Source of the DNA: Planctomycetes bacterium GWF2_41_51
Lineage (GTDB): Bacteria > Planctomycetota > Phycisphaerae > Sedimentisphaerales > UBA12454
Reading direction: 5' to 3'
NCBI GenBank assembly: GCA_001825665.1
Contig: MHXZ01000087.1
Span: 1 to 64,000 of the forward strand
DNA: 64,000 nucleotides
The position numbers and the translations under genes are program-made. Under the pieces are notes generated by a model. It saw only the letters and a list, made by a program, of their open reading frames with translations. It did no database searches and was not told where the DNA came from. Below, in pieces: positions 9,121 to 44,352 of this stretch (the first letter of the stretch is position 1; the number at the start of each line of letters is the position of its first letter).

Positions 9121-9136
9121 GAAAAGGGAGGATTTT

Positions 9137-10159: not shown

Positions 10160-10224
10160 ATAGAAAAATAAAGTGTAATATAAAAGCTTTTTATTAATTT
10201 TTTACTTTTTTGGAGGCAGGAAAA

Positions 10225-15227: not shown

Positions 15228-17966
15228 TTACAATTGTGCATTTGGATCAAAAGCTTTATCGGTATTTATTTGATTCAGAGATGAATATTGTTTAAGAAAG
15301 GCGGCTTTGAGTTTGTCTAATGTAATCGTTATCGCAGGCTGAACGGTGCTTTGTTGACAATGGTTAATTATTTGAGAGAAAAGCCATTTACTTGCGGGTT
15401 CATCGGTATTCATATTTAGTGTACAGACAGTTAGCCTGCCTTTATTTGCGGCGAATTCAAAAAGACATGTTTGCTTGAAAACATTTTTATATGAACTGAC
15501 AACCTCAATGATTGGTTCGAAAGGCAGGGAGATTTCATTGAACACGACAGCACATCCATTTTCAAGCAATGATGCAAACTGCCAGTCACAAAAACCCTGA
15601 TGAGGAAAATCAGAAAAGATTGGGTGGTCATAAACAACGGTAGCGATATTGCCGGCAGGTCTGCCGCATATCGCCATTTGGAACGATGTAGGCAAAGTAG
15701 GAAGGTTAGCTGGGCCAATCAACAATACGCTTGCACCTTCTGATAATTTGTTAATTATATCAGAATTGATTTCATTTGTTATTATTAAATCGCTTGTATC
15801 AAGCTTTGGAATATCCGGGAAAAGCCAAAAGTTCCAATCATTAGATAGTATCCTATCTTGTGCTGTTAATGTAAGCTTTAAAACAACAGAAACAGGTTTG
15901 TCAATTAATGGAACAACAAATTCAATCTGAGATATTTTATTTACAGTTCCCAATTCAGATTCAATCGTTGCAGAGCCCGAAGCTAAAATATTTTTATTAT
16001 TTAATAATTCCCAATGTAATTTCGAACGATTCCAGGATTCTGCGCTGTAGTTTGAAAGATAAACATCAAAATTGTATTTTTTGCCTGTATGTAAATTGCG
16101 ATTTTCAGGTTCATCGAGTAAAAGTACATCTGCGCCGTTAAACGAACAAATGTGCTCAGGAGTGAAAGAATGTTTAAGCTGATAAAATTCATTCATAAGA
16201 CCGCAAGCATATCCGCTTCTGTGCCAATGATGATCAATAGCTCCGAGGAAATCATAACCGCTTAAGTATGAACATTTGCGAGCTTTTTCAATAACGTATT
16301 TTGTTAAACTATGCATCCATTTGCAAGAATTTTGATAATATAACTGTGCTTTCGTTAAAACCTGCTGCTTGCTTAAATAATTCCTGCACCCGGAAATCAA
16401 ATCGGTATTGATACGTGAATTTTGATAATTGTCTTCTAAGGATAAATCAAGATAACTTCCGAAAATGCCTAACTCATGACCCAACAAAGGTTTCTTATAA
16501 TGAGCCATAAATTGATTTAATTTTTTCCATTTGCCGTGCAGAGAAGAATATGACAAAAACCCCCAACTATAATGCCCGAGTACATCTGAAAATAATTTTA
16601 ACTTATTCAGACGAGTTGGGTTATGTTTGAAAGGAAAATTTACAATAGGAGAACCTAAATCTAATTCGTTCCAACTGTATTCTATTCCGCGAAGCGCTTC
16701 CTGTGGATTAAAGATTGCATCAGGTATAAGTTTTTTTTGGACATTCGCTAAATGTGATAATTGTTCAATCTTATTTTCATCAATCAATTCTTCATTACCA
16801 GCACAATAAATTATAACCGAAGGATGTTTGCGGCATTTTATCAATATGGCTTGCCATTCAGATGCAGTAAAGCCAGCGGGGGGTTCAACCTGAATTAGCA
16901 TGCCTGTTTCATCGGCGGCATCAAGGTATTCTTCAGGCGGAACCCAGGTGTGAAATCTTAACCAGTTAAAACCAAGCTGTTTCAATTTTATTAAATTTGT
17001 TTTATATTCCTGAAAATCAATATGAGGTGTGCAGGTTAATGGGAAATAGCAATGTTCGGTTGCGCCTCTAAGATAGAGAGGTTTTTTATTAAGAAGCAAA
17101 TGTGTAGAATCGACTTCAATCGTACGCAGTCCAAAATGATTCATGTATGTATCAACTATTTTTCCATCATTTATTAAATTTATCTCGATATCATATAGTA
17201 CAGGATTAAAATCAGACCATTCCTTTAATTCTAAAGAATCTGAAAACCATTGGGATGATGAATCTTCAACTGGAACAGAGCCTTGTTTAATTATATTGCC
17301 AGAATCTTTTTCACGAATCAACCATTCAATCATATAGTTGCATTTTGCTGAAACTCGAAATTCAAGATTCCAACAAAGTTGGTTATGTGAGTTGCGCAAT
17401 ATATAAACATTAGATATTTGAGCAGAAGAAGTAAGCTTAATTGAAACGTTCCTATAAATGCCGCCGGATTTTCCTGCATATCCGCGGATATCACAACCAA
17501 TTACATTATCGCGATGATTCGAAACGGCAATTATTATTTCATTTGTTCCTGGTTTTAGCAGACTCTCTATTGAAAATTCAAATGGAGTGGAATGCCCTAC
17601 ATGAGTTCCTAAAAATGAGCGATTAATCCATACGGATGCCTGAAGTCGTACGCCGCCGATGCGAAGTGTTGCAATTACATCGTTCAAAATCGCAGGAAGT
17701 GTAAATGTTTTTTTATACCAACCTGTGCCAATTAAATAAGGAAGTGAAGCATCGGGCGGAAATTCCATTTGCATCGGAAACGTTGGCGGCGAATAATCGG
17801 GATTGATTTGTAAATTGCTGAAATTTGCAAAATTCTGTTTGTGATCATCCCAAATAGCGGGGACGGGCATTTCTGATATAAAAGCTTCTTCTGAGGGAAT
17901 AACGCTATTTTGATTTGGACTATAAGCAAATGCCCAAACACCATTTAATTGAATGTCATTAAGCAT
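15228..17966 (-). CDS. GH2 family glycoside hydrolase
   Basis: The product has 912 residues from ATG 17966, which overlaps the upstream stop by 8 nt (ATGCTTAA) and indicates translational coupling; a longer frame reaching 18080 would overlap by 122 bp and is less likely. Domain order: jelly-roll sugar-binding domain (about 75-180), immunoglobulin-like domain (about 185-285), TIM barrel (about 290-560), then beta-rich C-terminal domains. The acid/base Glu392 lies in YCAGNEEL and the nucleophile Glu498 in LLGHELGIF, both classic GH2 positions. No signal peptide is seen, so it should act on imported oligosaccharides. Specificity (galactosidase, glucuronidase, mannosidase) is not determined. Copy B of the 44-bp element drives the operon. 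Confidence 0.88.
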   Translation of the reverse strand: MLNDIQLNGVWAFAYSPNQNSVIPSEEAFISEMPVPAIWDDHKQNFANFSNLQINPDYSPPTFPMQMEFPPDASLPYLIGTGWYKKTFTLPAILNDVIATLRIGGVRLQASVWINRSFLGTHVGHSTPFEFSIESLLKPGTNEIIIAVSNHRDNVIGCDIRGYAGKSGGIYRNVSIKLTSSAQISNVYILRNSHNQLCWNLEFRVSAKCNYMIEWLIREKDSGNIIKQGSVPVEDSSSQWFSDSLELKEWSDFNPVLYDIEINLINDGKIVDTYMNHFGLRTIEVDSTHLLLNKKPLYLRGATEHCYFPLTCTPHIDFQEYKTNLIKLKQLGFNWLRFHTWVPPEEYLDAADETGMLIQVEPPAGFTASEWQAILIKCRKHPSVIIYCAGNEELIDENKIEQLSHLANVQKKLIPDAIFNPQEALRGIEYSWNELDLGSPIVNFPFKHNPTRLNKLKLFSDVLGHYSWGFLSYSSLHGKWKKLNQFMAHYKKPLLGHELGIFGSYLDLSLEDNYQNSRINTDLISGCRNYLSKQQVLTKAQLYYQNSCKWMHSLTKYVIEKARKCSYLSGYDFLGAIDHHWHRSGYACGLMNEFYQLKHSFTPEHICSFNGADVLLLDEPENRNLHTGKKYNFDVYLSNYSAESWNRSKLHWELLNNKNILASGSATIESELGTVNKISQIEFVVPLIDKPVSVVLKLTLTAQDRILSNDWNFWLFPDIPKLDTSDLIITNEINSDIINKLSEGASVLLIGPANLPTLPTSFQMAICGRPAGNIATVVYDHPIFSDFPHQGFCDWQFASLLENGCAVVFNEISLPFEPIIEVVSSYKNVFKQTCLFEFAANKGRLTVCTLNMNTDEPASKWLFSQIINHCQQSTVQPAITITLDKLKAAFLKQYSSLNQINTDKAFDPNAQL

Positions 17967-19089
17967 GTGGATTAAAGCCTTTATTCCATCCTTTACCTCC
18001 ATGCCAGATTTCAAAAAGATGATTTTCTCCGCGCATCGGCGAGGGCGGGGCATCCTTAAGGATTTCGATGCACATAGCAATTGTCATAATCCTGGCATAA
18101 GTATCCCAAATGCTGCCTTCATTTGACTTAAATGCTGCTGCCTGTGTTGACCAGAAACGCAATTGGTCAATACGACTGTCTGAAAAAGAACCATCTGCCT
18201 GTTTGTTTACCATAATTGCATCAAGTACTTTTTTGCTGCATTCTTTTATTTGCTGTTGCTTTTCAGGCAATAGAAAATATCCATTTGAGATTATAACCAT
18301 CGCATCGAAGTCAAGGCATTGGCTGCCGCCTTTGCCAACCTCGTAATCGAACAAGCCATCGGATTGCTGGAGTGCGAGTGTATTATCGATAATCTGCTCG
18401 AAATAGTTAATTGGCCTGTTGTATGCCAAATATAGAGGGTAGAGGTGCATTGCCCCGGCCATAGCACATCTAATGTCGTCGTTTGGACCAAACCAAAAGC
18501 CGGTAGCAGGATCTTGTTTTTTGTCTAAATAATCAAATAGAAATTGAATTGCTTCAGAGGCTTGTTCATCCTGAAAATGACGAAATTGAAGGTCGAGCAG
18601 CACACCCATATCCATTATCCAATTACCTGCGGCCCAAAACCCTCCAGTCCAATTCTGACTCCAAAGCTCTTGCATCCATTTTTGCATTGAATCTCGCGAT
18701 TTGAAAGATTCGACAAATTTAATAGGTCTTTTGAGTTTGCCTCCCAATGCTTCAATTGCCCATGAGCAATGACGCGTTCGATGTGCCAGCAAAGCCCACA
18801 AAGGCTGTTTTTGTGTTGGATTAGCAATGTCAATTTTGTCTTCAAACAAACCATCATCTCTCTGGAACGATGATATATGATTTATCCATTTATCCCGATC
18901 AGTGTCGATAATCTTCAGTGCATCAAGAAACTGAAGCAGCAGCACGGCTGTCGCAGTGCCCATCGCGATAGGCTGTTCGGCGGCTTTGGAAACGCGAATC
19001 TCCCATTGATTTCCGGTTGAAAGACTTGAAATATATTTTATTGCGCCTTTACGGCCATTTTCCCAAATATTTTCGTAATCAAGTAGCAC
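17959..19089 (-). CDS. alpha/alpha-toroid protein of unknown function
   Basis: The 376-residue product starts at GTG 19089 with GGAAAAGA upstream. Its repeated helical pattern with GLFEDK, GGFWAAGNW, GFWFGPND, GLFDYEVG and ADGSFSDS motifs resembles prenyltransferase/squalene-cyclase-type or six-hairpin alpha/alpha toroids. I do not recognise a named family and no catalytic acid pair can be assigned safely. It has no signal peptide. The gene is first in an operon with the GH2 enzyme, with an 8-nt coupled overlap, and starts 33 bp after element B. A cytoplasmic glycan-processing role (hydrolase, epimerase or lyase on an alpha/alpha barrel) is likely by context but unproven. Confidence 0.7.
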   Translation of the reverse strand: MLLDYENIWENGRKGAIKYISSLSTGNQWEIRVSKAAEQPIAMGTATAVLLLQFLDALKIIDTDRDKWINHISSFQRDDGLFEDKIDIANPTQKQPLWALLAHRTRHCSWAIEALGGKLKRPIKFVESFKSRDSMQKWMQELWSQNWTGGFWAAGNWIMDMGVLLDLQFRHFQDEQASEAIQFLFDYLDKKQDPATGFWFGPNDDIRCAMAGAMHLYPLYLAYNRPINYFEQIIDNTLALQQSDGLFDYEVGKGGSQCLDFDAMVIISNGYFLLPEKQQQIKECSKKVLDAIMVNKQADGSFSDSRIDQLRFWSTQAAAFKSNEGSIWDTYARIMTIAMCIEILKDAPPSPMRGENHLFEIWHGGKGWNKGFNPHA

Positions 19090-19206: not shown

Positions 19207-20256
19207 ATGAAAAAAGCTGAAACAAACACTCCGATAACACTGAAACAAATTGCACTGAAAGTAGGGGTATCCAACATTGCCGTAGGTCATGTTTTGTTGG
19301 GCAGCGGCAAGAAAACGGTCAGGGTGAGTGAGAAAACAGCTGAACGTATAAGGCAGGTTGCTGCAGAAATGAATTATCGACCTAACCTTATAGCCAGGCA
19401 ATTAGCAGGTAAGGGCAGTAATATAATTGGTGTAGTTATTGATACTTGTGCTCCTGAAATTCACTTTAAGCTTCTTTCGGAAATGGAACGTTTAGCAGGA
19501 TTGAAAAACTACCGTTTTATGGTAGGGCAAACGCATAATGATATAAGCAAAATTAATCAATATCGAGAGGATTTTGCGAGTCGAGGGGTCGATGGGATAA
19601 TCTGCATGGCTCATCAGGACCCCGATCGTGGTCATGAAGTGTTTGCTGCGTACTCATCTTTTAAAAATGTGGTTTTCATAGGTAAGCCGCTTTTGGATAA
19701 TAATGACTCTTATTATGTAAGTAGTGATTATAGGGAGGGTATGTCAAAAGCCGTTGACCATCTTTGTACTCAAAAATGTAAAAGAATAGGATTGTTGCTT
19801 TTATCAACTAGAACAAAAGCAATGGAATTTCGATTAGAAGGTTTTGAACTTGGCTTAAAGAATCACGGGTTTGAAAAAAAACATGATTTAGTAGAGTACA
19901 TTGGTTTGCCGGGACAAATCTCAATTAAGTCGTTGGAGCCATATATTTTGAGGCTTGTCCACGATCACTCTGTAGACGGAATTCTTGCTTGTAACGACAT
20001 GATTGCTGCTATGGCTGTTCGTATTTTACAGACCAATGGTTTGAAAGTGCCTGAGCAAGTGCGCGTAATAGGGTATGATAACGTAGATTGGGCCGGCCTT
20101 TTTAATCCAGGGATCACAACATTAGATCAAAACTATATGCAAATGTCCAAATTGGCGATTGAACTTCTTTGGGCTCAAATTAACAATCAGAAGATCGAAC
20201 GAAAACAAAGATGTGTTATGGTTCCCCCCACTTTAGTTGTGCGACAGTCTGCATAG
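19207..20256 (+). CDS. LacI-family transcriptional regulator
   Basis: The 349-residue protein has an N-terminal HTH (about residues 10-62: TLKQIALKVGVSNIAVGHVL, then RPNLIARQLAG) and a sugar-binding effector domain (ILACNDMIAAM, VIGYDNVDW). It is a clear paralog of the LacI protein at 7203. It is divergent from the toroid/GH2 operon, with element B between them. It is the best candidate in the window for the protein that binds the 44-bp element, because regulators of this family commonly sit beside their operator; that assignment is inference. Confidence 0.9.
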   Translation: MKKAETNTPITLKQIALKVGVSNIAVGHVLLGSGKKTVRVSEKTAERIRQVAAEMNYRPNLIARQLAGKGSNIIGVVIDTCAPEIHFKLLSEMERLAGLKNYRFMVGQTHNDISKINQYREDFASRGVDGIICMAHQDPDRGHEVFAAYSSFKNVVFIGKPLLDNNDSYYVSSDYREGMSKAVDHLCTQKCKRIGLLLLSTRTKAMEFRLEGFELGLKNHGFEKKHDLVEYIGLPGQISIKSLEPYILRLVHDHSVDGILACNDMIAAMAVRILQTNGLKVPEQVRVIGYDNVDWAGLFNPGITTLDQNYMQMSKLAIELLWAQINNQKIERKQRCVMVPPTLVVRQSA

Positions 20257-20440
20257 CGATATTTTGATGTGGATCTGCCGCTGTCAATTAAGAGAGAATA
20301 TATTAGATAAATATATATCTTTATTATTTGCAATTGTGATTTATCAAAGTGCTTTTCCAAATAACAAACCAGCGAAAGCCTCATCAATATTGCATTTTTA
20401 TATGGAAATTGGTTGACGAATATGAGAACGATGGTTATAT

Positions 20441-20460
20441 TAAGTTTAACGTGAAACTTA
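20441..20460. promoter_or_regulatory. LacI-type palindromic operator
   Basis: A 20-bp inverted repeat with arms TAAGTTT and AAACTTA and centre AACGTG; nine of ten base pairs match. It lies 37 bp upstream of the first tandem glycosidase-like gene. Its core TTTAACGTGAAA differs by one base from the palindrome at 7146-7157, so the same regulator may bind both. The rest of the 240-bp gap is AT-rich with no gene. Confidence 0.65.
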
Positions 20461-20496
20461 AAGCGTGTAACTCCATTATAGAAAAGGATTTTTCTG

Positions 20497-21936
20497 ATGA
20501 AAGCTAATTTGTCTAACATCGTAATTATTGTGGTATTAAGTATTTGCATTTCCTTTACCTATGGAAGTTCAGTCGTGCTATATGATAGTGACGGTGTTGT
20601 GAAAGTTAATGGCAAGAGGATTTTTGTATATGGTGGATACCGTGATCCTTCCGATGATTGGCGCAAATTTGACGGAGTACGAGAGGCTGGGTTTAATTTG
20701 ACTCATGACTACTACTTTGAAACAAAACTTAAAAAAGGTTATAGCGAAAACGACGTCAACGAACTTATAAAAGAGGCACGTGAGTATTTGGATTTGGCCG
20801 AAAAGGCTGGTGTCGGGGTATTCTATGGTATTCCTCGGCAATCATTATGGGGAAAAGATACAGAAACAATAAGTCGGATAGTTGATGCGCTTAAAGATAA
20901 GTCGGCGCTATGGTTTTGGTATCTTTGCGATGAACCGACAAACCAAGTGAAAGATAATGCTAGAAAAAATCATAATGGCAGAAGCCTTGAAGATGTAAAA
21001 AAAAGTTACGATGTGATCAAAAAAGTTGACCCGAACCATCCCGTGGTGATAGTTGATGGGGGGCATAGATTAAAAGATAGTGTTGAAGCAGGGCTTTACT
21101 GCGATACTCTATGGGTTGACAGATATCTTATTCCTTACAGTACGCTTGGAATTGGTCGTAATATAGAACTGGTTCGTTCATTATATCCAGATAAACCTAT
21201 CTGGGGTGTTCCGGAAACTGGCGATCGTTTTAGCTGGTTGCGCGAGGCCAGAACAAAAAAGAAAAATCAAAATCTTTATCCAAGTACACGTACATTGACT
21301 ATCAATGATCAGACTGCTTTTATAAAGCCCAAAGCAATTCGTTCGCAAGCTCATGCTTGCATCTCTGCAGGTGCTGATGGAGTGGTTTACTGGTGGGGGC
21401 CTAAACATTTGCACGATTTTCGTAAGGATACTCCTGAATTATGGAAAGCGCAAGTTAATCTCGGCAAAGAATTACGAGGTCTTAGCGAGATACTTTTATC
21501 AAAAGAGCCGGTACCAGATATAAATATAGTCTATGATAAATGGGGTATGTATTTACGAATGGATCATCTCTATGACAAAGAGCTTGAGAAAGACCAATAT
21601 CCTCAACCTATTCCTGTAATGGTTTGGAAGCGGATGTACCAGGGAAGCCTGTATATGGGATTTGTTTGCGATTATGTTCCTATACAAAAAATTACGCTGA
21701 ATCTTCCATTCGAATATAAGCGAGCGGTTCAACTTCAGCTATTAGAACAAAAAACTATTATCAGTAGAAATGCAAAAGGTGGGCCGCAAATTAACACTAA
21801 AGACAGTGAGGTTGCAATCTGGGATGTTCAAAAAAACATGAAAAGTTTTTCATTTATTATGCAGGATTGTGATACAATTGTATGGCGGTTTGACCCTGTG
21901 ATTACTGAAACAAAAAAGAATAAAAATGTGGATTAG
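20497..21936 (+). CDS. secreted glycosidase-like protein, tandem paralog 1
   Basis: The 479-residue product has an N-terminal hydrophobic signal (MKANLSNIVIIVVLSICISF). It forms a single TIM-barrel-like domain of a family I cannot name with confidence; it resembles GH2/GH5/GH42-type clan A barrels. Motifs shared with paralogs are FVYGGYRDPSDDW, GFNLTHDYYFETKL, ALWFWYLCDEP (Asp145-Glu146) and PIWGVPETGD (Glu240). The two glutamates follow strands at spacing compatible with an acid/base and nucleophile pair of a retaining enzyme. It has no C-terminal binding module, unlike the next two genes. An operator-like palindrome lies upstream. Confidence 0.75.
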   Translation: MKANLSNIVIIVVLSICISFTYGSSVVLYDSDGVVKVNGKRIFVYGGYRDPSDDWRKFDGVREAGFNLTHDYYFETKLKKGYSENDVNELIKEAREYLDLAEKAGVGVFYGIPRQSLWGKDTETISRIVDALKDKSALWFWYLCDEPTNQVKDNARKNHNGRSLEDVKKSYDVIKKVDPNHPVVIVDGGHRLKDSVEAGLYCDTLWVDRYLIPYSTLGIGRNIELVRSLYPDKPIWGVPETGDRFSWLREARTKKKNQNLYPSTRTLTINDQTAFIKPKAIRSQAHACISAGADGVVYWWGPKHLHDFRKDTPELWKAQVNLGKELRGLSEILLSKEPVPDINIVYDKWGMYLRMDHLYDKELEKDQYPQPIPVMVWKRMYQGSLYMGFVCDYVPIQKITLNLPFEYKRAVQLQLLEQKTIISRNAKGGPQINTKDSEVAIWDVQKNMKSFSFIMQDCDTIVWRFDPVITETKKNKNVD

Positions 21937-23965
21937 AATGAATACCAACAAAATATTTTTTTTAATTCTATTAATTATCAATGGCGGTTCAATGGCATTC
22001 GCTGGTTCTGTTGTTCAGTTTGAGCCGGATGGTACTGTTAGTGTTAACGGAGAAAGAAAATTTATATACGGTACTTTTAGAGATCCTTCCGATGATTGGA
22101 CTGTTTTTACCGGCATACAAGAAGCCGGTTTCAACTTAACCCATGATTATTATTTTGAAACCAAACTTAACGCAGGATACACATCAACCAATGTTTCAAA
22201 TCTTATCGCCGAAGCCGGCACGTACCTTGATTTGGCTGCGAATAATAACGTTGGCGTTTTTCTTGGAATTCCGCGGGAAATAGTGTTTTCGACAGATACA
22301 ACGGCTTTAGGGCAATTTGTTAATGCCCTAAAGAATAAGCCGGCACTATGGTTTTGGTATCTGATGGAAAATCCAGGAAATTATGTAAACATATCATCTA
22401 AATTGCAAACCTGTTATACCTATATAAAATCTATTGATACTAATCATCCTATTGTTATAGCTGAAAAAGGTAAGACTCTCATTGGTGCATCGACTCTGGG
22501 GCAATATTGTGATATGATTTGGGTAAATGATAATTGCATACCTTATGGATACCTAAGTAAACTGGCAGAAATAGATAGCGTGGAATCCCTTTACCCACCA
22601 CACCCAAAACTTGTAATGTCAGTCATTCATGCCACAGACAGCCTCGCAAATGAAAATCGGCAGGGCATGCATCCCGCGAAAATAAAGCTTAATGATAATT
22701 CTACAAATATTGATAGAAATGCTATTCATGGTCAAGCACAAGCAAGTATCGCTGCTGGAGCAAAAGGGATCTTGTGTTATTATAATTCTGAAAAGCACAA
22801 TATAAAAAATGATACCCCGGCAGTTTGGCAGGCAATAGTAGAACTTGGTCAAGAAATGTCAAATCTTGAGCCGGTTTTATTAAGCAATGAAACGGTTCCG
22901 AATTTCTCCCTTTATGAACAGGTATGGGGTCGGACTTTAAGGATGCGGGATCTATATGGTGATGATGAGGTTACGCCTGCGCCCGGATATCCTACAAAAT
23001 ATTTGAAATGGTGGACAAAGAAATATAATAATGAATTATATGTTGGATTTATTGCTGATTTCATGCCTTTAAATCGTATGCATATGACAACACCCTATCA
23101 GTTTTCAAGTGTTGTCCAATATCCAGGTGGAAACACAGTAATAAAAGCAAATGGCTCTTCGAATCCAACGATATATTACAATCTTTGTGAACCGGCTATA
23201 TGGGATGTAAAAAATAATTCATATATTCAGTTTGTAATCAATGAAAAAGATTCATTCGTTTGGAAATTTGCTATTGAAGGAATATCGGGCGACTTGGTTT
23301 ACAGCGATGATTTCACAGGTACTGACGGTACATCTTTAAATATTTACAATCAATATTGGACAATTGCCGGAGGTATTGCGCAATTGAGAAATAATAAATT
23401 GTATCTCGGTACGCTTCAGTCAGGCAATGACTCCGATAACAATGTTCTATATTATGGCACCGGCAGTAATACATGGGAAGATTATACCGTTAGTGTTGAT
23501 ATGTTGAGTACTAGAAATTTTGCGACTACTGGAAGTTCAACCCTTTACGCAGGATTAATTCTTTACGGTGCTCGTGAATCAGTCAACACAGACAGGCTAT
23601 GGGGTTATCAGGTTAGATTAAGAGATTTGGATACATCGCCAAATTGCAGACTTTACATAAGTAAAAGGCTCGATGGTACAGGATCGTACGACTTAAATTA
23701 TATAGATATGCCAGATTGGGTAGTAAATGGGTGGTTTAACATTACTGCTGCTATAGTAAAAAATAACGGAAATGTTTCCATTAATGTTGTAATGAAAAAT
23801 GTAAGTGATGGAACGGTTATCGGTACTGTGTCGGCTCTAGATGATGGCAGCGTTGGTGGGGCAGTTTTTAATCATAAAACTTTTGGTTTTAACAGCGCCA
23901 TGAGTTACAGTGCTTCCGATTATCACACTGAGTGGGACAATTTAAAGGTTTACAATGCTGATTAA
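21926..23965 (+). CDS. secreted glycosidase-like paralog 2, probable pseudoenzyme, with ConA-like module
   Basis: The 679-residue product overlaps the preceding stop by 11 nt; ATG 21938 is an alternative start. A signal peptide precedes a barrel domain clearly homologous to paralogs 1 and 3 (FIYGTFRDPSDDW, GFNLTHDYYFETKL). The DEP motif reads ENP (Glu148-Asn149), and the PETGD motif reads IHATD (His235), so both glutamates conserved in the neighbours are absent. Residues about 450-679 form a ConA-like module (DDFTGTDGTSL...WDNLKV) very similar to the PEP-CTERM protein at 10225. It may bind rather than cleave glycan. The reading frame is fully intact, so it is not a decayed gene. Confidence 0.75.
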   Translation: MWIRMNTNKIFFLILLIINGGSMAFAGSVVQFEPDGTVSVNGERKFIYGTFRDPSDDWTVFTGIQEAGFNLTHDYYFETKLNAGYTSTNVSNLIAEAGTYLDLAANNNVGVFLGIPREIVFSTDTTALGQFVNALKNKPALWFWYLMENPGNYVNISSKLQTCYTYIKSIDTNHPIVIAEKGKTLIGASTLGQYCDMIWVNDNCIPYGYLSKLAEIDSVESLYPPHPKLVMSVIHATDSLANENRQGMHPAKIKLNDNSTNIDRNAIHGQAQASIAAGAKGILCYYNSEKHNIKNDTPAVWQAIVELGQEMSNLEPVLLSNETVPNFSLYEQVWGRTLRMRDLYGDDEVTPAPGYPTKYLKWWTKKYNNELYVGFIADFMPLNRMHMTTPYQFSSVVQYPGGNTVIKANGSSNPTIYYNLCEPAIWDVKNNSYIQFVINEKDSFVWKFAIEGISGDLVYSDDFTGTDGTSLNIYNQYWTIAGGIAQLRNNKLYLGTLQSGNDSDNNVLYYGTGSNTWEDYTVSVDMLSTRNFATTGSSTLYAGLILYGARESVNTDRLWGYQVRLRDLDTSPNCRLYISKRLDGTGSYDLNYIDMPDWVVNGWFNITAAIVKNNGNVSINVVMKNVSDGTVIGTVSALDDGSVGGAVFNHKTFGFNSAMSYSASDYHTEWDNLKVYNAD

Positions 23966-26165
23966 TAAAATAAATTTATTTGTTTTGATTGTAACCTGTT
24001 CAACAGTGTTCGCCGGTTCTATCGTGCAATTTGAGCAGGATGGTGCTGTAAATATAAATGGTACACGAACTTTCATATATGGAACCTATCGAGACCCTTC
24101 AGATAATTGGCATAATTTTACTGGAATTGTAGAGGCTGGTTTCAACTTGACCCATGATTATTATTTTGAAACCAAACTTAAAGCAGGGTACACGTCAAAC
24201 GATGTGTCGAATCTTATCGCTGAAGCAAGCGCTTATCTTGATTTAGCATACAATGCCGGTGTAGGGGTTTTTTATGGTTTGCCGCGGGAGGCGGTCTGGA
24301 GCCAGGATGTTGCGACACTCACGCAGATAGTTAATGCTATAAAGAATAAACCTGCATTATGGTTCTGGTATCTTATGGATGAACCCAGCGGCGATCCTGC
24401 CAATGAAGGGCCAATGCAAACGGCGTATCTAACATTAAAAAATCATGACCCTAATCATCCTGCTATAATTGTTGATAATATTACGAGGCTTGCTGTCAAT
24501 CCGCAAGTCGGTCAGCACAATGATTCTATTTGGGTAGATCGTTATCATATTCCTTATGGAGTTTTTAATATCAAATGGGCCATTGAAGATGTTAAGTTGT
24601 TGTACCCAAATAAACCTATTTGGGCAGTTCCTGAATCAGGCGACAGGCAACCGTCTATCAGATCAAATTGGCTTACAGAACCATACTTTCCTTCGACCGT
24701 CGAAATCAGAGATATTTCAACTTGCAATAGTTATAAAGCGTTGCGAGCTCAGGCATATGCGTGCATTTCAGTTCCTGGCGTCTCTGGCGTAACCTACTAT
24801 TGGTACCCTAAAAATCTTGTGGATTTGAAAAATGATGTGCCAGCTCTTTGGCAGGGTCATATTAAGCTCGGCCAAGAATTTAGCCAAATTAGCCAGGCAC
24901 TTGTTTCGCCGGATTTGGTTCCTGTTACCCATATTTCTGTGAATAATGAGGGAATGAAAAAAAGGATGAACTCTTTATACGGATATGAACTTCCTGAAGA
25001 ACAATATCCGCAAATTGACCACTATGCTGTTTGGAAACGTTGGCATAACGGCAGCTTATATATGGGTTTTGCAAGTGAATATGTGCCAGGACAAATTATT
25101 ACATTAAAATTGCCTTTTGAGTTTAAACAGGTGCTTCAATATCCCGGCGGAAATGTTGTTATGAAAGCAATCCCTGGCGAAAAAGCATGGCTAGACCAGA
25201 ATTCCATTCCTGTGATAATGTATAATGTTCCTGATTATCGAAATATCAGTTTTGTCCTTAATGATACTGATTCTGTTTGCTGGCGATTTGACCCCGTTGA
25301 TATTTCAAGGTCATATACGGAAGACTTCAGTGGTTCTAATAATGGTCAGCCTTCGGGTTGGACAGTATCCAGAGGAGCCATTGATATTCAGAATAATATG
25401 TTTGTTAGCAATGCAACTCAAGGCAGCCATCAGCAGGCTTATTATGTGGATCAGGAAAGCAATCAGTGGACAGACTATGAAGTCGATATAGATTTCTATA
25501 CGAATAAAAGTTTTTCTTCCATTACGGACCATTATGTCGGCCTGAATTTGCATGTTACCGATGCTGGCAGCTATGTGGTTAGAATCCGCAACGTCTCATC
25601 GTACCCCAGACTGTATATAAGTAAGGAAATAGGCACTTCAGAAATATGCGATTTGGGATTTATTACTGCATCAGATTTCAGCAATAATGAATGGTATCAT
25701 TTAAGCTGCGATGTTAATAACAATTCTGATGGTTCTGTCAGTTTGAATGCTATATTGACAAAAAGCAATGATGGACAACATATTGCAGAACTTTCGGTAA
25801 CCGATGATGGCACTATAGCCGGTTCTGCTTATACCCAAGGCGATGTTGGTGTACATAGTGTTATGAGTACGGGATATTATACCAAATATGATAATCTTAT
25901 GGTTTTCAGAAGCACAGAGAGAAATTTATGTGAACAGGCTATTGCGTACGGATACGGCATACAAAGCGACTTAAATGACAATTGTTATGTTGATGTGTCT
26001 GATCTGGATGTTCTGGTCCAAAACTGGCTGGAGACTGATGATAATTTATTCGTTGACTTAAGCGGCGATGGACAAATTAATTTTGTTGATTTTTCTCTGT
26101 TTCTCCAAGGATGGCTGGAATGTGTTCATCCTGAGGATGGCAATTGTTCAAAACCATGGCAGTAG
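23955..26165 (+). CDS. secreted glycosidase-like paralog 3 with ConA-like module and dockerin-like tail
   Basis: The 736-residue product starts at ATG 23955, overlapping the upstream stop by 11 nt. Signal peptide residues 1-20 (to VFA). The barrel domain keeps DEP (Asp142-Glu143) and PESGD (Glu227), as in paralog 1. Residues about 455-660 are a ConA-like module (EDFSGSNNGQPSGW...KYDNLMV), closest in opening to the 8269 protein. Residues about 672-736 hold two calcium-loop repeats (DLNDNCYVDVSDLD and DLSGDGQINFVDFS), a full dockerin-like duplication, then a Cys-rich tail. It is probably a surface-retained or complex-bound glycosidase; substrate unknown. Confidence 0.78.
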   Translation: MLINKINLFVLIVTCSTVFAGSIVQFEQDGAVNINGTRTFIYGTYRDPSDNWHNFTGIVEAGFNLTHDYYFETKLKAGYTSNDVSNLIAEASAYLDLAYNAGVGVFYGLPREAVWSQDVATLTQIVNAIKNKPALWFWYLMDEPSGDPANEGPMQTAYLTLKNHDPNHPAIIVDNITRLAVNPQVGQHNDSIWVDRYHIPYGVFNIKWAIEDVKLLYPNKPIWAVPESGDRQPSIRSNWLTEPYFPSTVEIRDISTCNSYKALRAQAYACISVPGVSGVTYYWYPKNLVDLKNDVPALWQGHIKLGQEFSQISQALVSPDLVPVTHISVNNEGMKKRMNSLYGYELPEEQYPQIDHYAVWKRWHNGSLYMGFASEYVPGQIITLKLPFEFKQVLQYPGGNVVMKAIPGEKAWLDQNSIPVIMYNVPDYRNISFVLNDTDSVCWRFDPVDISRSYTEDFSGSNNGQPSGWTVSRGAIDIQNNMFVSNATQGSHQQAYYVDQESNQWTDYEVDIDFYTNKSFSSITDHYVGLNLHVTDAGSYVVRIRNVSSYPRLYISKEIGTSEICDLGFITASDFSNNEWYHLSCDVNNNSDGSVSLNAILTKSNDGQHIAELSVTDDGTIAGSAYTQGDVGVHSVMSTGYYTKYDNLMVFRSTERNLCEQAIAYGYGIQSDLNDNCYVDVSDLDVLVQNWLETDDNLFVDLSGDGQINFVDFSLFLQGWLECVHPEDGNCSKPWQ

Positions 26166-26224
26166 CATATCAACAACTTTCAAAGAGATATATTCTAGGT
26201 ATAAAAAATTAGGATGTCTAACAG

Positions 26225-28291
26225 GTGAATATTTTTGATTGGTCCATAATAATATTCTTTCTTTTATGTATTGTCGGAATAGCGATTTATACGAAACGAT
26301 ATACAAAAGATGTCGCTGGTTTTTTATCCGCCGATCGTTGCGCCGGCCGGTATCTTCTAACAATTGCTGATGGTGTTGCAGGGGTTGGAGCTATTACATT
26401 AATCGCAAACTTTGAGAAATACCATCAAACAGGGTTTCCTGGATTATGGTGGGATGCAATGATGGCGCCTATAGCAATAATTATTGCATTATCAGGATGG
26501 GTAATTTATCGTTATAGACAAACTCGTGCCCTTACAATGGCACAATTTTTTGAAATAAGATATAGCAGGAAATTTCGGATTTTTTCAGGAATACTTGCTT
26601 GGCTGTCTGGGATACTTAATTATGGGATTTTTCCTGCAATTACGGCACGATTTTTTATATATTTTTGCGGAATACCGCAAAAGTATGTTGTCGTAGGGCC
26701 GCTTGAATTAAATATAACATTGGGATTGGTAATGTTCGTCTTGTTAAGCATGGCGGTTGTAATAGTATTTTATGGTGGTCAGATAGCCGTAATGATGACA
26801 GATTTTTTTCAAGGTCAATTAATGTATCTTGTTTTTATTGCCATTACGGTATTTTTACTTTTCAAGTTTGGTTGGTCGGGGATTGTTGAAACAATAAAAA
26901 AATCACCTCCCGGGTTATCAAAAATAAATCCTTTTCAAATGGGGTCTGTACAAGATTTTGGCCCAATATTTTTTGTTATATTGAGTTTAAAACAGTTTTA
27001 TGGTTATCTTGCCTGGCAAGGAAACCAGGGTTATAATTGTGCGGCTAAAAGTCCGCATGAGGCGAGAATGGCCCGAGTCTTAGGCTCATGGCGAGCCAAT
27101 GTTGTTGGTTTGATGATGATAGTAATTCCGGTTTGTGTATGGGTACTGCTGAATGGAAACCTTTTTCCTGCGGCGGCAAATGCAACACGGGCAACGATCG
27201 AATCTATCAGCGATCCACATATACAAAAACAGATGATCACACCAATTGGAGTACTGAACCTTTTGCCCCACGGATTTTTAGGACTATTTTGTGCCATTAT
27301 GATAGCTGGTTCAATATCGACAGATAACACATATTTGCATTCCTGGGGCACTATTTTTATTCAGGATGTTATTATGCCGCTGAGAAAAAATAAGGAAAAA
27401 TTTAGTCCTGAAAAACATCTTAAATTATTAAGGTATTCTGTTATCAGTGTTGCATTATTTGCCTGGGTCTTTAGTATGATTTTTCCTCTTAAAGAATATA
27501 TAATAATGTGGTTTCAAATTACAGCCGCACTATATATCGGAGGTGCTGGCTCAGCCATAATAGGTGGACTTTATTGGAAAAGAGGCACGACGGCTGGCGC
27601 TTGGGGTGGAATGATAACTGGTTCAGTTCTTGCGACATTGGGGATATTTTTGAGAAATATTTTCTGGCCTTATATGCTTCCATCCTTAAAAGTTAACTAT
27701 GAAAACATAGCCTTTTTGAATTATCTTCCTTCCAAATTTCCTTATAACGGCGTAGTATGGGCTTTTTTCACTGCTTGTGCTGCTATAAGTGTTTATGTGA
27801 TAGTTTCATTGTTCACAAAACCAGATCCAGACTTTGACATGGATAGGATGCTGAACAGGGGGAAATGGTCCAATGAGAAAAACAAAGAAAAGAAGGCCAC
27901 TGTAAATATAATACTTAAACGGTTAGGTGTATCCGAAGAATTTACCGCTGTGGATAAGATTATATATTTTTCTGTGTTGGGATTAGGTTTGTTCTGGTTT
28001 TCGGCATTTGTTGTTGGTTCTCTGATTCATAAGTTTGCCGGTGGTATTTCAGATGACGGCTGGGCAAGGTGGTGGCTCTTTAAAATAGTATTAGTTCTTT
28101 TTATAGCAGCGGTAACTAGTGTTTGGTTTTTGTGGGGAGGAATATTGGACTTAATTGCCATGATTAAAAAATTGAGTGTGGCTAAAGTTAATGTGCTGGA
28201 TGATGGCAGTGTTATAGGCCATCATATAGCTGACGAAAAGGAAATTTCAAAAAATAATAATGATTCAAAGAATCCTACAGGACAGAATTAA
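26225..28291 (+). CDS. sodium:solute symporter (SSS family)
   Basis: The 688-residue membrane protein starts at GTG 26225. It has many hydrophobic helices and sequence typical of the SSS family (for example residues 1-25 as first helix, ADGVAGVGAITLIANF, and AGSISTDNTYLHSWGTIF, matching the family's Ser-rich sodium-site helix). SSS transporters couple sodium influx to uptake of sugars, acids or osmolytes across the inner membrane. Located 59 bp after the glycosidase-like triplet and before an oxidoreductase, it most likely imports the released mono- or oligosaccharide. The C-terminal portion after about residue 540 is a charged loop and extra helices. Confidence 0.9.
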   Translation: MNIFDWSIIIFFLLCIVGIAIYTKRYTKDVAGFLSADRCAGRYLLTIADGVAGVGAITLIANFEKYHQTGFPGLWWDAMMAPIAIIIALSGWVIYRYRQTRALTMAQFFEIRYSRKFRIFSGILAWLSGILNYGIFPAITARFFIYFCGIPQKYVVVGPLELNITLGLVMFVLLSMAVVIVFYGGQIAVMMTDFFQGQLMYLVFIAITVFLLFKFGWSGIVETIKKSPPGLSKINPFQMGSVQDFGPIFFVILSLKQFYGYLAWQGNQGYNCAAKSPHEARMARVLGSWRANVVGLMMIVIPVCVWVLLNGNLFPAAANATRATIESISDPHIQKQMITPIGVLNLLPHGFLGLFCAIMIAGSISTDNTYLHSWGTIFIQDVIMPLRKNKEKFSPEKHLKLLRYSVISVALFAWVFSMIFPLKEYIIMWFQITAALYIGGAGSAIIGGLYWKRGTTAGAWGGMITGSVLATLGIFLRNIFWPYMLPSLKVNYENIAFLNYLPSKFPYNGVVWAFFTACAAISVYVIVSLFTKPDPDFDMDRMLNRGKWSNEKNKEKKATVNIILKRLGVSEEFTAVDKIIYFSVLGLGLFWFSAFVVGSLIHKFAGGISDDGWARWWLFKIVLVLFIAAVTSVWFLWGGILDLIAMIKKLSVAKVNVLDDGSVIGHHIADEKEISKNNNDSKNPTGQN

Positions 28292-28408
28292 AAGCAACAG
28301 GTAAGTATAACTCTATTTTGAAGATATTATATAATTTACAATAGGAATAAGGAAGATTATAATTGAGAGTTTATGTGTCATTTATTCAATGATAGGAGTT
28401 TTTTAGCA

Positions 28409-29764
28409 GTGAAGAAATATGTTTTAGTTGGTGTTGGTGGGCGTTCAGTAATGTTTACAGATGCTTTAAGCGGGCAATTTAAAGATAAAGGACAGTTGCT
28501 CGCCATTTGTGACAGCAACAAAGGAAGGCTGGAACTATGCAAGGGGCGTTTGGCATCTGTTTATCCTGGACTGAAATCTTATATTGCGCAAGATTTTGAT
28601 GTGATGATAAAGGAAAACAAACCTGACGCTGTTATAGTTTGTACCAAAGATAGCGCACATGATGAATATATTTGCAGAGCAATGGAATTTGGGTGTGATG
28701 CAATTACAGAAAAGCCAATGACCATAGATGAAAAAAAGTGTCAAAGAATAATCGATACTATTAAAAAAACCGGTAAAACTGTTCGGGTAACTTTTAATTA
28801 CCGTTATGCACCAGCTCGTACTCAAATTAAGAAATTACTGATGAGCGGCATAATAGGAAAAATACTGAGTGTTGAATTTCAATGGATGTTAGATACATAT
28901 CATGGAGCTGATTATTATCGACGATGGCATCGTAATAAAAAAAATTCTGGCGGTCTCTTGGTTCATAAGGCAACGCATCACTTTGATCTAATTAATTGGT
29001 GGATAAGTTCATGGCCTGAATCAGTATTTGCAAAAGGAGGAAGGGTATTTTATACCGAAAAACAGGCAAAACGTTATGGCTTAGAAAACCATGGTCAGCG
29101 TTGCCATAACTGTTTAACGAGTGAAAAATGCAATTTTTATCTTGATTTGAAATCGTTTGATACTATGAAAGAACTTTATCTGGACAATGAGGATTATGAC
29201 GGCTATGAACGTGATAAATGCATATTCAGCAATGAAATTGACATAGAAGACACTATGAATGTCGTAGTAAAATATAACAATGAAGTATATTTAAGTTATA
29301 ATCTAAATTCATTTATGCCATGGGAGGGCTATCACGTGGCATTCAACGGAACAAAAGGAAGACTTGAACAATATTGTCAAGAATCGTCTTATATCAACGG
29401 TGATGGAGGTGTACAGGGAGCTTTCCAGCCAGAAAGAACCTTGATAAAAGTTTGTCCACATTTTCAGAATTCATACGATGTTAAGGTTGAGGAAGGAAAA
29501 GGTGGCCATGGTGGAGGAGATATAATTATGCTAAACGATATATTTGGTACGCCACAATTCGATCAATATAAAAGAAGTGCAGATTATACGCAGGGTGCCT
29601 ATTCGATACTTACCGGCGTTGCGGCTAACATGTCTTTATCAACCGGTAAAGATATCAAGATTACCGATTTGGTTAAAAATTTGCCTCAACCTCAATTTCC
29701 ACTTATGCCGGGTGAAGATGAAAACATTGAATTCAAAAAAAATGCCAAAAGAATAAGATTTTAA
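28409..29764 (+). CDS. Gfo/Idh/MocA-family oxidoreductase with Cys-rich insertion
   Basis: I start the 451-residue protein at GTG 28409 because AGGAG precedes it and the Rossmann motif VLVGVGGRS follows directly; an ATG at 28373 would add 12 unlikely residues. Rossmann fold with the ITEKPM motif and NYRYAP segment typical of this NAD(P)-dependent family; the HKATHHFDLINW segment contributes the active-site His. An insertion contains CHNCLTSEKC (C-x2-C-x5-C), also present in the oxidoreductase at 31787-32998, which may bind a metal. It is probably a sugar or sugar-acid dehydrogenase acting on the imported product. It is cotranscribed with the URO-D-like gene that follows by 15 bp. Confidence 0.85.
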   Translation: MKKYVLVGVGGRSVMFTDALSGQFKDKGQLLAICDSNKGRLELCKGRLASVYPGLKSYIAQDFDVMIKENKPDAVIVCTKDSAHDEYICRAMEFGCDAITEKPMTIDEKKCQRIIDTIKKTGKTVRVTFNYRYAPARTQIKKLLMSGIIGKILSVEFQWMLDTYHGADYYRRWHRNKKNSGGLLVHKATHHFDLINWWISSWPESVFAKGGRVFYTEKQAKRYGLENHGQRCHNCLTSEKCNFYLDLKSFDTMKELYLDNEDYDGYERDKCIFSNEIDIEDTMNVVVKYNNEVYLSYNLNSFMPWEGYHVAFNGTKGRLEQYCQESSYINGDGGVQGAFQPERTLIKVCPHFQNSYDVKVEEGKGGHGGGDIIMLNDIFGTPQFDQYKRSADYTQGAYSILTGVAANMSLSTGKDIKITDLVKNLPQPQFPLMPGEDENIEFKKNAKRIRF

Positions 29765-29779
29765 TAAGTGGGAGCTGAT

Positions 29780-30808
29780 ATGACAATTGAAAAGCAGATG
29801 AAGTTTTGGCATAACCCTTCTAAAGGTCGAAGATTAGTAACTTTTAGCTGGACAAAAGTTCAAAATTTTGATTTTCAAAAAATTACCGACCCGCAGTTAT
29901 CATTAAAATTTTCGATTGATAAATGGAATATAAGAAATAATTTTTGTGATGATTCAATACCCATGATAAGACCTGAAATAGGAACGGGTTTAATCGCTTC
30001 TGCCTTTGGCGCTGAACTTCTGTTTAAAAGTGATAATTTACCTGCGGTTAAAAATAATCCTATACAATCTCTTTCAGATTTAAAAAACATAAATTCACCT
30101 GATCCTCTTAAGGCTGGCTATTTCCCACAAATTTATAAAGTCATAGACTGCTACAAGAAAAATATGCCTGCAAATTATAAGTTGTGCCAGTGCGATATTC
30201 AGGGACCATGGAATACAGCTCAATTGCTGGCAGGAAACAAAATATTTCTTGATATATATGATGACATAGATTTTGTCTGTTCATTGCTTGCTGCTGTTAC
30301 AAGTTTTATGATCAAAAGCGTAAAAAAGCTAAAAGAAGCTATAGGAGAAGGACCGGAAAGTTTCTATCTTCAAGGTGTCCAAATACCCGGCGGTGCACGT
30401 ATATGCAATTGCTCAACAGATATGATTTCTCCCGATTTTTATCAAAAGTATCTGATGCCTCACGATATACATTTTTTTGAAGCACTTGGTGGTGGAATGA
30501 TGCATATATGCGGGAATAATTCTCACTGCATACAGCATTTTAACAGAATAGAAAAACTTTATGCCCTTGAGGTAAATTTCAATTATCTGGATGTTTTCAG
30601 AGTATCGGAAATGTTGAGAGAAGACGTTGTGCTTTTTTGTACCGGACCTGTGGAATTTCCGCTGTTAACACCTTTAGGTGAGCAAACACTTCAGAAGTTT
30701 TATAAAGGAAACTTTCCAGATAAAAGAAATATAATTTTTCATTTCAACGACCCTCTTGATTTAAATAAGTGCAAAAAATTATATGAAGCTATCAAGCAAG
30801 ATAACTAA
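29780..30808 (+). CDS. URO-D-superfamily (methyltransferase-like) protein
   Basis: The 342-residue product starts at ATG 29780 after GGGAG. It belongs to the uroporphyrinogen decarboxylase superfamily, which also contains corrinoid:CoM-type methyltransferases MtaA/MtbA. The HICGNNSHC segment and a later FCTGPVEF segment supply His, Cys and Cys at positions resembling the zinc ligands of the methyltransferase branch, so methyl transfer is more likely than porphyrinogen decarboxylation. Heme genes are absent around it. Similar proteins occur at 2939-3936 (broken) and 46441. A role in handling methyl groups, for example from O-methylated sugars, is possible but speculative. Confidence 0.75.
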   Translation: MTIEKQMKFWHNPSKGRRLVTFSWTKVQNFDFQKITDPQLSLKFSIDKWNIRNNFCDDSIPMIRPEIGTGLIASAFGAELLFKSDNLPAVKNNPIQSLSDLKNINSPDPLKAGYFPQIYKVIDCYKKNMPANYKLCQCDIQGPWNTAQLLAGNKIFLDIYDDIDFVCSLLAAVTSFMIKSVKKLKEAIGEGPESFYLQGVQIPGGARICNCSTDMISPDFYQKYLMPHDIHFFEALGGGMMHICGNNSHCIQHFNRIEKLYALEVNFNYLDVFRVSEMLREDVVLFCTGPVEFPLLTPLGEQTLQKFYKGNFPDKRNIIFHFNDPLDLNKCKKLYEAIKQDN

Positions 30809-30902
30809 GAACCAGTGATTGACCGTTTGAAGGCTGAATATCTAAAGGCTCCACGTCTGGGTAAAATGAAGTTTTTTAATCCTAAAGCCACATAGAACAA
30901 AA

Positions 30903-31655
30903 ATGAAAATGAAAGTTATATATTTACTAATTTTTGGATTAGCTTTGCTGCCCCTTATATCATGCTCCCAAAATGGAACGATTGGTAATAACATTAACAA
31001 GCGTATAGATTTTCATTATGTAGTAAAAAAAGCTAATGGTATAGTGCCTTTAGATGTACCTTGGGCCGATGCGGATGTTCTTGAATTGAAAAATTATATG
31101 GGGCAAAAGCCGCAGCATTTCCCAAAAACTTATGCCAAACTCCTTTACGATAGTAATAATATATATGTTTTTTTTAAGGTAAAGGACAATTATATTCGGG
31201 CAATAGCACAGCAGACACATGGTCAAGTATGGGGTGACAGTTGTGTTGAATTTTTCTTCTTACCTGACACGAATCAAAAGGATGTATATTTTAATCTCGA
31301 AACTAATTGCGGTGGAACGATATATTTTCGTTACAATGATTTGAGTAATAATATTAAAAGACTTGTGGATGTTTCAGACTGTGAAAAAATAAAAGTTTAT
31401 CATTCACTTCCCAAAATGATAGAACAGGAAATAGCAAAACCGACGGTATGGTATTTGAGTTATAAGCTACCTTTTAGTGTTATTTCAAATTACAATAAAA
31501 TTCAAAGTCCTCGGTCAGGTGTGGTCTGGAAGGCTAATTTTTATAAATGCGCAGACCAAAGCTCGCATCCGCATTGGTTGACTTGGTCTACGGTTGATTA
31601 TCAAACACCAAAATTTCATCTTCCTCAATATTTTGGTTCACTTGAATTTGAATAG
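30903..31655 (+). CDS. CBM9-like lipoprotein
   Basis: The 250-residue protein has a lipoprotein leader (MKMKVIYLLI...LPLISCS, lipobox LISC). The mature part resembles carbohydrate-binding family 9-like domains (VPLDVPWADADV, YAKLLYDSNNIYVFFKVKD, GDSCVEFFFLP, HWLTWSTVDY near the end). Such proteins bind sugar chain ends and are common beside polysaccharide catabolism genes. It is the last gene of the plus-strand operon; the next gene is convergent. Confidence 0.8.
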   Translation: MKMKVIYLLIFGLALLPLISCSQNGTIGNNINKRIDFHYVVKKANGIVPLDVPWADADVLELKNYMGQKPQHFPKTYAKLLYDSNNIYVFFKVKDNYIRAIAQQTHGQVWGDSCVEFFFLPDTNQKDVYFNLETNCGGTIYFRYNDLSNNIKRLVDVSDCEKIKVYHSLPKMIEQEIAKPTVWYLSYKLPFSVISNYNKIQSPRSGVVWKANFYKCADQSSHPHWLTWSTVDYQTPKFHLPQYFGSLEFE

Positions 31656-31786: not shown

Positions 31787-32998
31787 TTATATTATATCAA
31801 TGCGGTTTTTTGCTTCATATCGGAAATATACCCTGCGGCCTTCAATTCGAGATACATCGGAAGCAAAACACATCACAGCCGAAAGATATCCAGCCGTTGC
31901 GTTAGATTCAGGACGAAAATCAGGATCTGCCATCATACGCTGAAGCTGCATTGCGTGGATACGATCGCCTCCGCCGTGACCCGAACCATCCCCTGTGCAA
32001 TCAAATGACGTTTCCTGATCTGTATTGTTTTCGTGTAAATAAACCTTTTGCTCATGAAGATTCGCCCAGATGCGGCCCTTTGTGCCAATTGCATAAAAAT
32101 TCCTGCTTGTGCGTTGACCGTAGCAATTGAAATTCAGCATAAAATTAACAATTGCCCCATTTTCATATTCGATACCGACACTCTGGGTATCGACAATATC
32201 CTTGTCAATATTATAAATACAGGCATTGTCCTCGCGTACAAACTTGTGCAGAATCTTTTCGTCGGCATCTTCATGACCGCTGAAAACCGGCTCTTTGTAA
32301 TATTTGCAATTTTCTGAAACTTTACAATCGTCACAGTGTTGAGGCAATGATGGATTAGGCCCAAAAATCAATCTGCTTCCATAACTGTTAAGTGAACTCG
32401 GACGTGATCCAATCAGCCATGTTAGAACATCCATATCATGACAGCACTTTTCTAGCATGGCTCCGCCAGAAGTTCGGCAATAACGCCGCCAAAAACCGCG
32501 ATTCATAATAGAGGTAACCCCCAGCCCTGGAAGTTCATCTGCCTGAATACTTGTCACCCGTCCAATTCGATCAGTAGAAATCAATTCATGAATCCTCGAG
32601 TACAAAGGAGTAGAACGCAGCACAAAACCAAGCAGTGTACGACCATTATTTGCAGCCTCTGCGTTAATTATCCGTTCACAATCAGCTTTAGTCGTAGCTA
32701 ATGGTTTTTCCAACGCGATTGGCAAACCAAGTTCAAGACACGCAACCGCCTGTTCGGCATGCAAATGGTTAGGGGTGCAGATAACTATACCATCAAGGTC
32801 GGTCCGTGACTTGAGCATATCACGATAATCGTCATACTCTTCAAATCCACTTTTAATACCAGAAATTTGTGCCATCACCTTACGATTTCTTTTATCTGGA
32901 TCCGCTAATGCCGCCACCTCGATTTTATCCGATGCCGCATAATGTCGTGCCCATGCCGAAGCCCGTCCGCCTGTACCTATAAATGCCACTTTATGCAT
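31787..32998 (-). CDS. Gfo/Idh/MocA-family oxidoreductase with Cys-rich insertion
   Basis: The 403-residue protein opens MHKVAFIGTGGRASAWA (Rossmann loop) and has ALEKPLATT and GGAMLEKCCHDMDVLTWL, standard family motifs. The insertion CDDCKVSENC (C-x2-C-x5-C) matches the one in the 28409 protein and is uncommon in the best-known family members. It is last in a minus-strand operon behind two sulfatases, 37 bp after the second. It probably oxidises a sugar set free by desulfation. No signal peptide. Confidence 0.85.
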   Translation of the reverse strand: MHKVAFIGTGGRASAWARHYAASDKIEVAALADPDKRNRKVMAQISGIKSGFEEYDDYRDMLKSRTDLDGIVICTPNHLHAEQAVACLELGLPIALEKPLATTKADCERIINAEAANNGRTLLGFVLRSTPLYSRIHELISTDRIGRVTSIQADELPGLGVTSIMNRGFWRRYCRTSGGAMLEKCCHDMDVLTWLIGSRPSSLNSYGSRLIFGPNPSLPQHCDDCKVSENCKYYKEPVFSGHEDADEKILHKFVREDNACIYNIDKDIVDTQSVGIEYENGAIVNFMLNFNCYGQRTSRNFYAIGTKGRIWANLHEQKVYLHENNTDQETSFDCTGDGSGHGGGDRIHAMQLQRMMADPDFRPESNATAGYLSAVMCFASDVSRIEGRRVYFRYEAKNRIDII

Positions 32999-33035
32999 AT
33001 GCCTGATTCCTTAAATTAAATAATCTGAAAGATTA

Positions 33036-36072: not shown

Positions 36073-36149
36073 TTTAAAAGCCTAAAATACTAGGTATATT
36101 TATTAATAGATGTAAAATTTATCTTTACAAAATATATTTTGGATTGTAG

Positions 36150-36193
36150 ATTAGCCGTATAATCAATTGTATTCGGTTTTTATATTATTGCAA
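36150..36193 (+). promoter_or_regulatory. 44-bp shared promoter/operator element, copy C
   Basis: Begins ATTAGCCGTATAATCAATTG and ends TATTATTGCAA, with GCAA at positions 41-44 as in the other copies. Located between divergent sulfatase operons, 51 bp upstream of the plus-strand sulfatase, toward which it points. The TATAAT at element positions 9-14 is a perfect -10 hexamer. Confidence 0.8.
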
Positions 36194-36243
36194 GAAGATA
36201 TTTCAAAAATCTGCATCATAGTAAAAATAAAGGTGATCGTATC

Positions 36244-41239: not shown

Positions 41240-41254
41240 TGTTTAAATCTTTCC

Positions 41255-44312: not shown

Positions 44313-44352
44313 TTAAAAAAGGATTTTTTTTAGAGAAATTTCAGAAGATTAA

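Follow-up and report, generated by a model that had tools for sequence, protein, structure and literature searches.

A probable pseudoglycosidase flanked by two residue-keeping sister proteins in a planctomycete glycan-degradation locus

Introduction

What becomes of a glycosidase-like protein whose catalytic residues are gone? The question is raised by a gene triplet of Planctomycetes bacterium GWF2_41_51, located in the window analyzed here, the first 64,000 nucleotides of contig MHXZ01000087.1 (130,220 bases, in an assembly of 4.8 Mb). Three adjacent paralogous genes on the + strand encode P1 (20497-21936, 479 amino acids), P2 (21926-23965, 679 amino acids) and P3 (23955-26165, 736 amino acids), the last with a weak dockerin-like C-terminus below the Pfam cut-off. 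P2 is predicted to consist of a barrel like that of glycoside hydrolase (GH) clan GH-A, devoid of catalytic residues, followed by a C-terminal module. An initial annotation of this DNA had proposed that P2 lost both conserved glutamates and is kept by selection, either as a glycan-binding pseudoenzyme or as an enzyme of altered mechanism. Pseudoglycosidases are a recognised class, for which excerpts of PMC7828330 give YKL-39 and klotho as examples. Judging from sequences and structural models, P2 is probably a maintained pseudoglycosidase that has lost its catalytic residues and probably binds glycan.

Results and Discussion

The family alignment held 49 non-redundant members, and two short fragments (L020) were dropped from it to give the 47 rows used for the tree and the residue counts. 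The motifs described initially are all present and align with one another. P1 and P3 read DEP at the first site (Glu146 and Glu143), where P2 reads ENP, with Asn149 encoded by aat (22370-22372, + strand like all residues below); at the second site P1 reads PETGD (Glu240), P3 PESGD (Glu227) and P2 IHATD, with His235 encoded by cat (22628-22630). Site 1, the acid/base position at the end of β4, is Glu in 43 rows, Asp in 3 and Asn in P2 only. Site 2, the nucleophile position at the end of β7, is Gln in 39 rows, Glu in 3 (P1, P3 and L043), Gly in 3, Ser in a relative from genome G402 and His in P2. By these counts, the acid at site 1 (Glu or Asp in 46/47) is a genuine feature of the family, with P2 as a clear outlier, whereas Glu is not conserved at site 2. 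The claimed loss of two conserved glutamates therefore stands for the first and lacks support for the second.

The loss in P2 is wider than the initial annotation saw. The residue preceding the acid/base is Asp in 46/47 rows and Glu in P2 (Glu148, 22367-22369). Asn201 (22526-22528) occupies a β6 column that holds Asp in 39 rows and Glu in 4, the others being Asn (P2), Ala (the G402 protein), Met and Ser (one row each), and Asn203 (22532-22534), in the column after β6, replaces a Tyr found in 46/47 rows. In a separate column table of 46 non-paralog rows, the L020 fragments included, His268 (22727-22729) stands where 41 rows, as well as P1 and P3, have Arg. When each row was left out in turn and its departures were counted at columns at least 90% conserved among the remaining rows, P2 departed at 5 of 8 near-invariant columns (one of which, column 475, also differs in P1 and P3). 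No other row departed at more than 2 of its 8 or 9 columns, and P1 and P3 each departed at 1 of 8. With these replacements P2 should not hydrolyse glycosides by the clan mechanism, and its catalytic deadness is well argued from the residues.

It is unlikely that P2 is active with a rebuilt site. Catalysis would then fall to Glu148, His235 or Asp202, and the reaction might be another one, for instance elimination, transglycosylation or attack on an activated or anionic sugar. Glu148 and His235 are ionisable and close to the old catalytic positions, the frame is not decaying, and a family that already strays from the canonical nucleophile, with Gln in 39/47 rows, may tolerate other chemistry. 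However, five near-invariant columns were lost together, the β6 Tyr among them, Glu148 sits one residue off the acid/base place, and the residue set of P2 is found in no relative.

AlphaFold2 models of P2 and P3 were built from seven-row alignments, with a mean predicted local distance difference test (pLDDT) score of 81.2 and a predicted template modelling (pTM) score of 0.83 for P2, and 86.3 and 0.86 for P3. Both contain eight β/α units followed by a C-terminal β domain, and the P2 model has the (β/α)8 barrel of clan GH-A. In the P3 model, Glu143 (model residue 123) follows β4 (115-122) and Glu227 (207) lies just past β7 (202-205); in the P2 model, Asn149 (124) follows β4 (116-123) and His235 (210) ends β7 (206-210). 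The initial annotation had held that residues placed away from the pocket would speak against it; as far as strand position goes, this objection did not materialise, the two sites lying at the β4 and β7 ends. The loop after β7 is poorly predicted (<50; the P2 block 201-210 averages 67), which leaves the side-chain direction at site 2 unsure. Among the matches listed by VIA-align, the nearest Protein Data Bank (PDB) structures to both models are from GH42, GH164, GH140, GH2 and GH5, with Z ~20-24 (24.4 at best for P2), root-mean-square deviations of 3.2-5.0 Å and 9-17% identity. The best of them, the GH42 β-galactosidases, GH164, GH140 and the GH2 β-glucuronidases, belong to families that we take to be members of clan GH-A; a common fold does not establish the activity.

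A search with the family profile (hmmsearch) returned GH158 at 2e-9 and GH2 β-glucuronidases from 8.4e-6, and aligned the family Glu with the β4 Glu of both. The printed GH2 alignment, ungapped at β7, is off by one residue, so that site 2 is equated with the nucleophile of GH2 by strand position. The GH158 endo-β-1,3-glucanases of clan GH-A, the nearest sequence match among solved structures, share the barrel, the C-terminal β domain and the aligned β4 Glu with the family, although the match spans profile positions 71-177 only and could arise from a clan-level link. According to excerpts of PMC7157763, clan GH-A enzymes carry the acid/base after β4 and the nucleophile after β7, and in BuGH158 the substitutions N136A, E137A and E220A each abolish activity. 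Whereas GH158 has that Asn (N136) before the acid/base, the family has Asp (46/47) and P2 Glu; at the β7 place, unlike GH158, the family has Gln, Gly, Ser, His or Glu. Measured against the two clan glutamates, P2 lacks both, at the β4 end (Asn149) and the β7 end (His235), P1 and P3 have both (with strand positions taken from the P3 model only), and the wider family mostly lacks the β7 one.

P2 thus combines a glycosidase fold with the absence of catalytic residues, as a pseudoglycosidase does, the family itself being presumed to be one of glycosidases. The likeness to klotho and to the GH18 member YKL-39 lies in a glycosidase fold that was kept, catalytic residues that were lost and a protein that is maintained. 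In contrast to these, P2 is bacterial, lies in a glycan-degradation locus beside two residue-keeping sisters, is unclassified by Pfam, and its glycan binding is putative. Against Pfam and NCBIfam, the P1 barrel gave no match and the P2 and P3 barrels only matches under the curated cut-offs; a phmmer search of P3 against PDB sequences returned none, and no paper on the barrel family was found in the literature, as judged by titles and abstract starts.

The P2 frame is fully open over 679 codons (21926-23965), as stated initially. A stop-free run of this length has a chance of ~8e-23 given its own base composition, and the codon-position G+C bias resembles that of P1 and P3. A relic turning into a pseudogene would suit the loss of catalytic residues and the length of the P2 branch, which at 0.85 exceeds those of P1 and P3 (0.43 and 0.56) in the 47-row tree. 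We find this very improbable in view of the open frame and paralog-like codon bias, the limited amino-acid change beside saturated synonymous change, the low ratio of nonsynonymous to synonymous rates (ω 0.20) in the C-terminal module described below and the clustering of the losses at pocket columns.

Barrel identity to P3 is 44-47%, and the proportions of nonsynonymous and synonymous differences (pN, pS) between the P2 and P3 barrels are 0.39 and 0.67 (corrected synonymous distance, dS, 1.7). In the first 65 columns, the nonsynonymous distance (dN) is 0.14 and dS 1.17, and the N-terminal halves are 72% identical. Recent gene conversion was considered as the cause of this N-half likeness and ruled out because pS is 0.59 in these columns. 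Nine relative rate tests, P1:P3 included, were run with the G402 protein as outgroup. The P2:P3 counts were 8:4 in the N-half, 19:23 in the C-half and 21:12 in the β domain (all p >0.16), and the P2:P1 counts 16:7 in the N-half and 22:17 in the C-half. The overall amino-acid rate of P2 is about equal to that of its paralogs, with no clear acceleration. At sites common to P1, P3 and the G402 protein, P2 keeps 40/45 in the N-half (β1-α3), 36/49 in the C-half (β4-β8) and 13/27 in the β domain, and among its lost C-half sites are both residues of the acid/base pair as well as the Tyr and the Arg; by the same measure, P1 keeps 36/38 and P3 36/44 in the C-half. The retained GH-A fold, the lost acid/base Glu and pocket invariants, the rates, the frame that is not decaying and the module ω of 0.20 make a pseudoenzyme kept by selection the best-supported reading, as had been proposed, the second Glu excepted.

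Relatives were sought in genome sets that overlap in part. P2 as a query at 1e-10 matched 1/98 genomes, the source genome itself, and the P3 barrel at 1e-5 matched 16/397 genomes of the class, again with the source genome included. A seven-row profile matched 9/392 genomes of the phylum and 9/51 of the family of G402 at 1e-20, 5/301 of the order of G402 and 1/29 of the class of G481 at 1e-25, and 2/38 of the order of G202 at 1e-30. Scans with three-row alignments confirmed none of 40 genome-contig stretches and none of 53 viral-contig stretches; a seven-row scan of genome contigs gave 4 loci from 51 stretches (Armatimonadota, Phycisphaerae, Victivallales and Sphingobacterium). The closest single-copy relative is the G402 protein (L032:9334-10686, + strand), whose site looks intermediate, with DEP retained but Ser at site 2 and Ala in place of the β6 Asp. 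A tandem pair in G261 (L033:9112-12626, - strand) has DEP and Gln at site 2 in both members, as does a distant family member in the window itself (106-2517, - strand), preceded there by apparently two copies of a sandwich-type module.

The two site columns were excluded from the 47-row tree, in which P1-P3 are united in a single clade (100/96) inside an 11-row group with a variable site 2; outside this group, site 2 is always Gln. The fewest changes on the tree are 1 for site 1 (acid or not) and 7 for site 2. P1 groups with P3 in this tree (96/56) and P2 with P3 in an 11-row tree (58/55), on which approximately unbiased (AU) tests reject neither P1+P3 (p-AU 0.376) nor P1+P2 (p-AU 0.153). The loss of a second Glu by P2 was therefore not upheld: with the branching order of the triplet unsettled by both trees, the difference could reflect a loss in P2 or a gain in P1 and P3 once P2 had diverged. 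Going by the sequences, the Gln seen across the family at the nucleophile position is odder than the loss in P2, and merits follow-up. A speculative extension, which we hold to be rather unlikely, is that the whole family, with Gln as its usual state, works without the β7 nucleophile by an unrecognised mechanism (e.g., inverting or substrate-assisted), and that site 2 is changing within the triplet, where P1 and P3 gained their Glu and P2 stripped the remainder of its site to bind. If this were true, one locus would hold a side-by-side record of a catalytic machine gained and lost.

Several points weigh against a maintained pseudoglycosidase. The G402 protein is without the site-2 acid and the β6 Asp yet keeps DEP, so that such changes also occur in presumed enzymes, and we know of no proven hydrolase in the Gln-bearing family. 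The paralog dS values are near saturation, and in the β-sandwich the P2:P1 count of 25:12 (p 0.047, one of the nine tests) is a marginal excess in P2. No P2 ortholog was found across the searched class, phylum, order and family subsets, so that any selection on the P2 branch alone is putative.

Purifying selection acts on the C-terminal module of P2 (23294-23950, + strand; residues 457-675). The module, a putative ConA-like one according to the initial annotation, has no Pfam match; it is 63% identical to a stand-alone protein encoded at 10210-11022 (+ strand), with dN 0.28, dS 1.39 and ω 0.20; in this region P2 and P3 are just 33% identical. The stand-alone protein has a PEP-CTERM-like C-terminus, called by eye and because it matches a G402 protein at the tail that Pfam assigns to PEP-CTERM. 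That G402 stand-alone protein was itself rejected as a counterpart of the P2 module, the similarity being confined to the anchoring tail. The stand-alone protein is one of three consecutive small secreted-looking proteins (8269-11022, + strand), the other two of which end in dockerin-like repeats, as judged by eye.

Under the pseudoglycosidase reading, P2 would have arisen among three sister genes specific to its lineage, retaining the (β/α)8 barrel, the β-sandwich and most of the β1-β3 side of the cleft while the acid/base Glu (Asn149), the preceding Asp (Glu148), the β6 Asp and Tyr (Asn201 and Asn203) and the Arg (His268) were replaced. Its N-terminus, read from the translation, is hydrophobic, and P2 is presumably secreted together with P1 and P3. 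We infer that it may bind the same polysaccharide, putatively sulfated and uronic, through the retained half-cleft and the C-terminal module, and in doing so would concentrate the substrate, or present it, for P1, P3 and the GH2 protein, lyase and sulfatases nearby.

Adjacency of the genes, with 11-base overlaps of P1/P2 and P2/P3 at the listed starts, suits balanced expression, and a non-catalytic P2 could instead assemble with P1 and/or P3, activating or ordering them like dead paralogs in some other enzyme families, with PMC5201418 and PMC3663545 as published precedents of activation. Translation of P2 may instead begin at its second Met, codon 5 (21938), so that the P1/P2 overlap may be absent. 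P1 is without the C-terminal module, and the close relative in G402 is single-copy in its locus; both count against such a partnership, which we consider quite improbable.

Upstream of the triplet, the window encodes a LacI-type regulator (19207-20256, + strand; named by similarity to a Pfam LacI protein), an alpha-toroid protein (17959-19089, - strand) and a divergent GH2 protein (15228-18080, - strand) that shares 39% identity over 958 amino acids with a protein encoded near the G402 relative. The listed GH2 frame overlaps that of the alpha-toroid protein, so that translation of the GH2 protein probably begins further in. The G402 relative is also neighboured by a LacI regulator and by a relative of the window protein at 11100-11885, of DUF1559 type as named from a G261 homolog; these matching neighbours link the family with loci of this type. 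A counterpart of the alpha-toroid protein was considered at L032:14912-16147 and rejected. After the triplet come a sodium:solute symporter (26225-28291, + strand), an oxidoreductase, a URO-D-like protein and a CBM9 protein. The window also encodes a GH31 protein, and the region 31787-46380 is dense in sulfatase-like frames, accompanied by a heparinase II/III-type lyase, a BNR_4 protein and a GH88 protein; one of the several frames reading as sulfatases was tested by Pfam. The lyase, GH88, the sulfatase-like frames and neighbouring genes suggest a sulfated, uronate-containing polysaccharide as the substrate of the locus. A promoter scan of 20200-31000 gave 56 sites against 39.6 in shuffled sequences and was not used, and terminator-like sites were at the shuffle level.

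Conclusions

P2 would add to the pseudoglycosidases a bacterial member that stands beside two residue-keeping sisters, a natural experiment in the passage from a cutting enzyme to a binding protein. The locus also illustrates that a plausible second catalytic Glu, when read from two paralogs, can hold locally where the wider family has Gln. Should this Gln-bearing family turn out to be catalytic, how it works would have to be explained.

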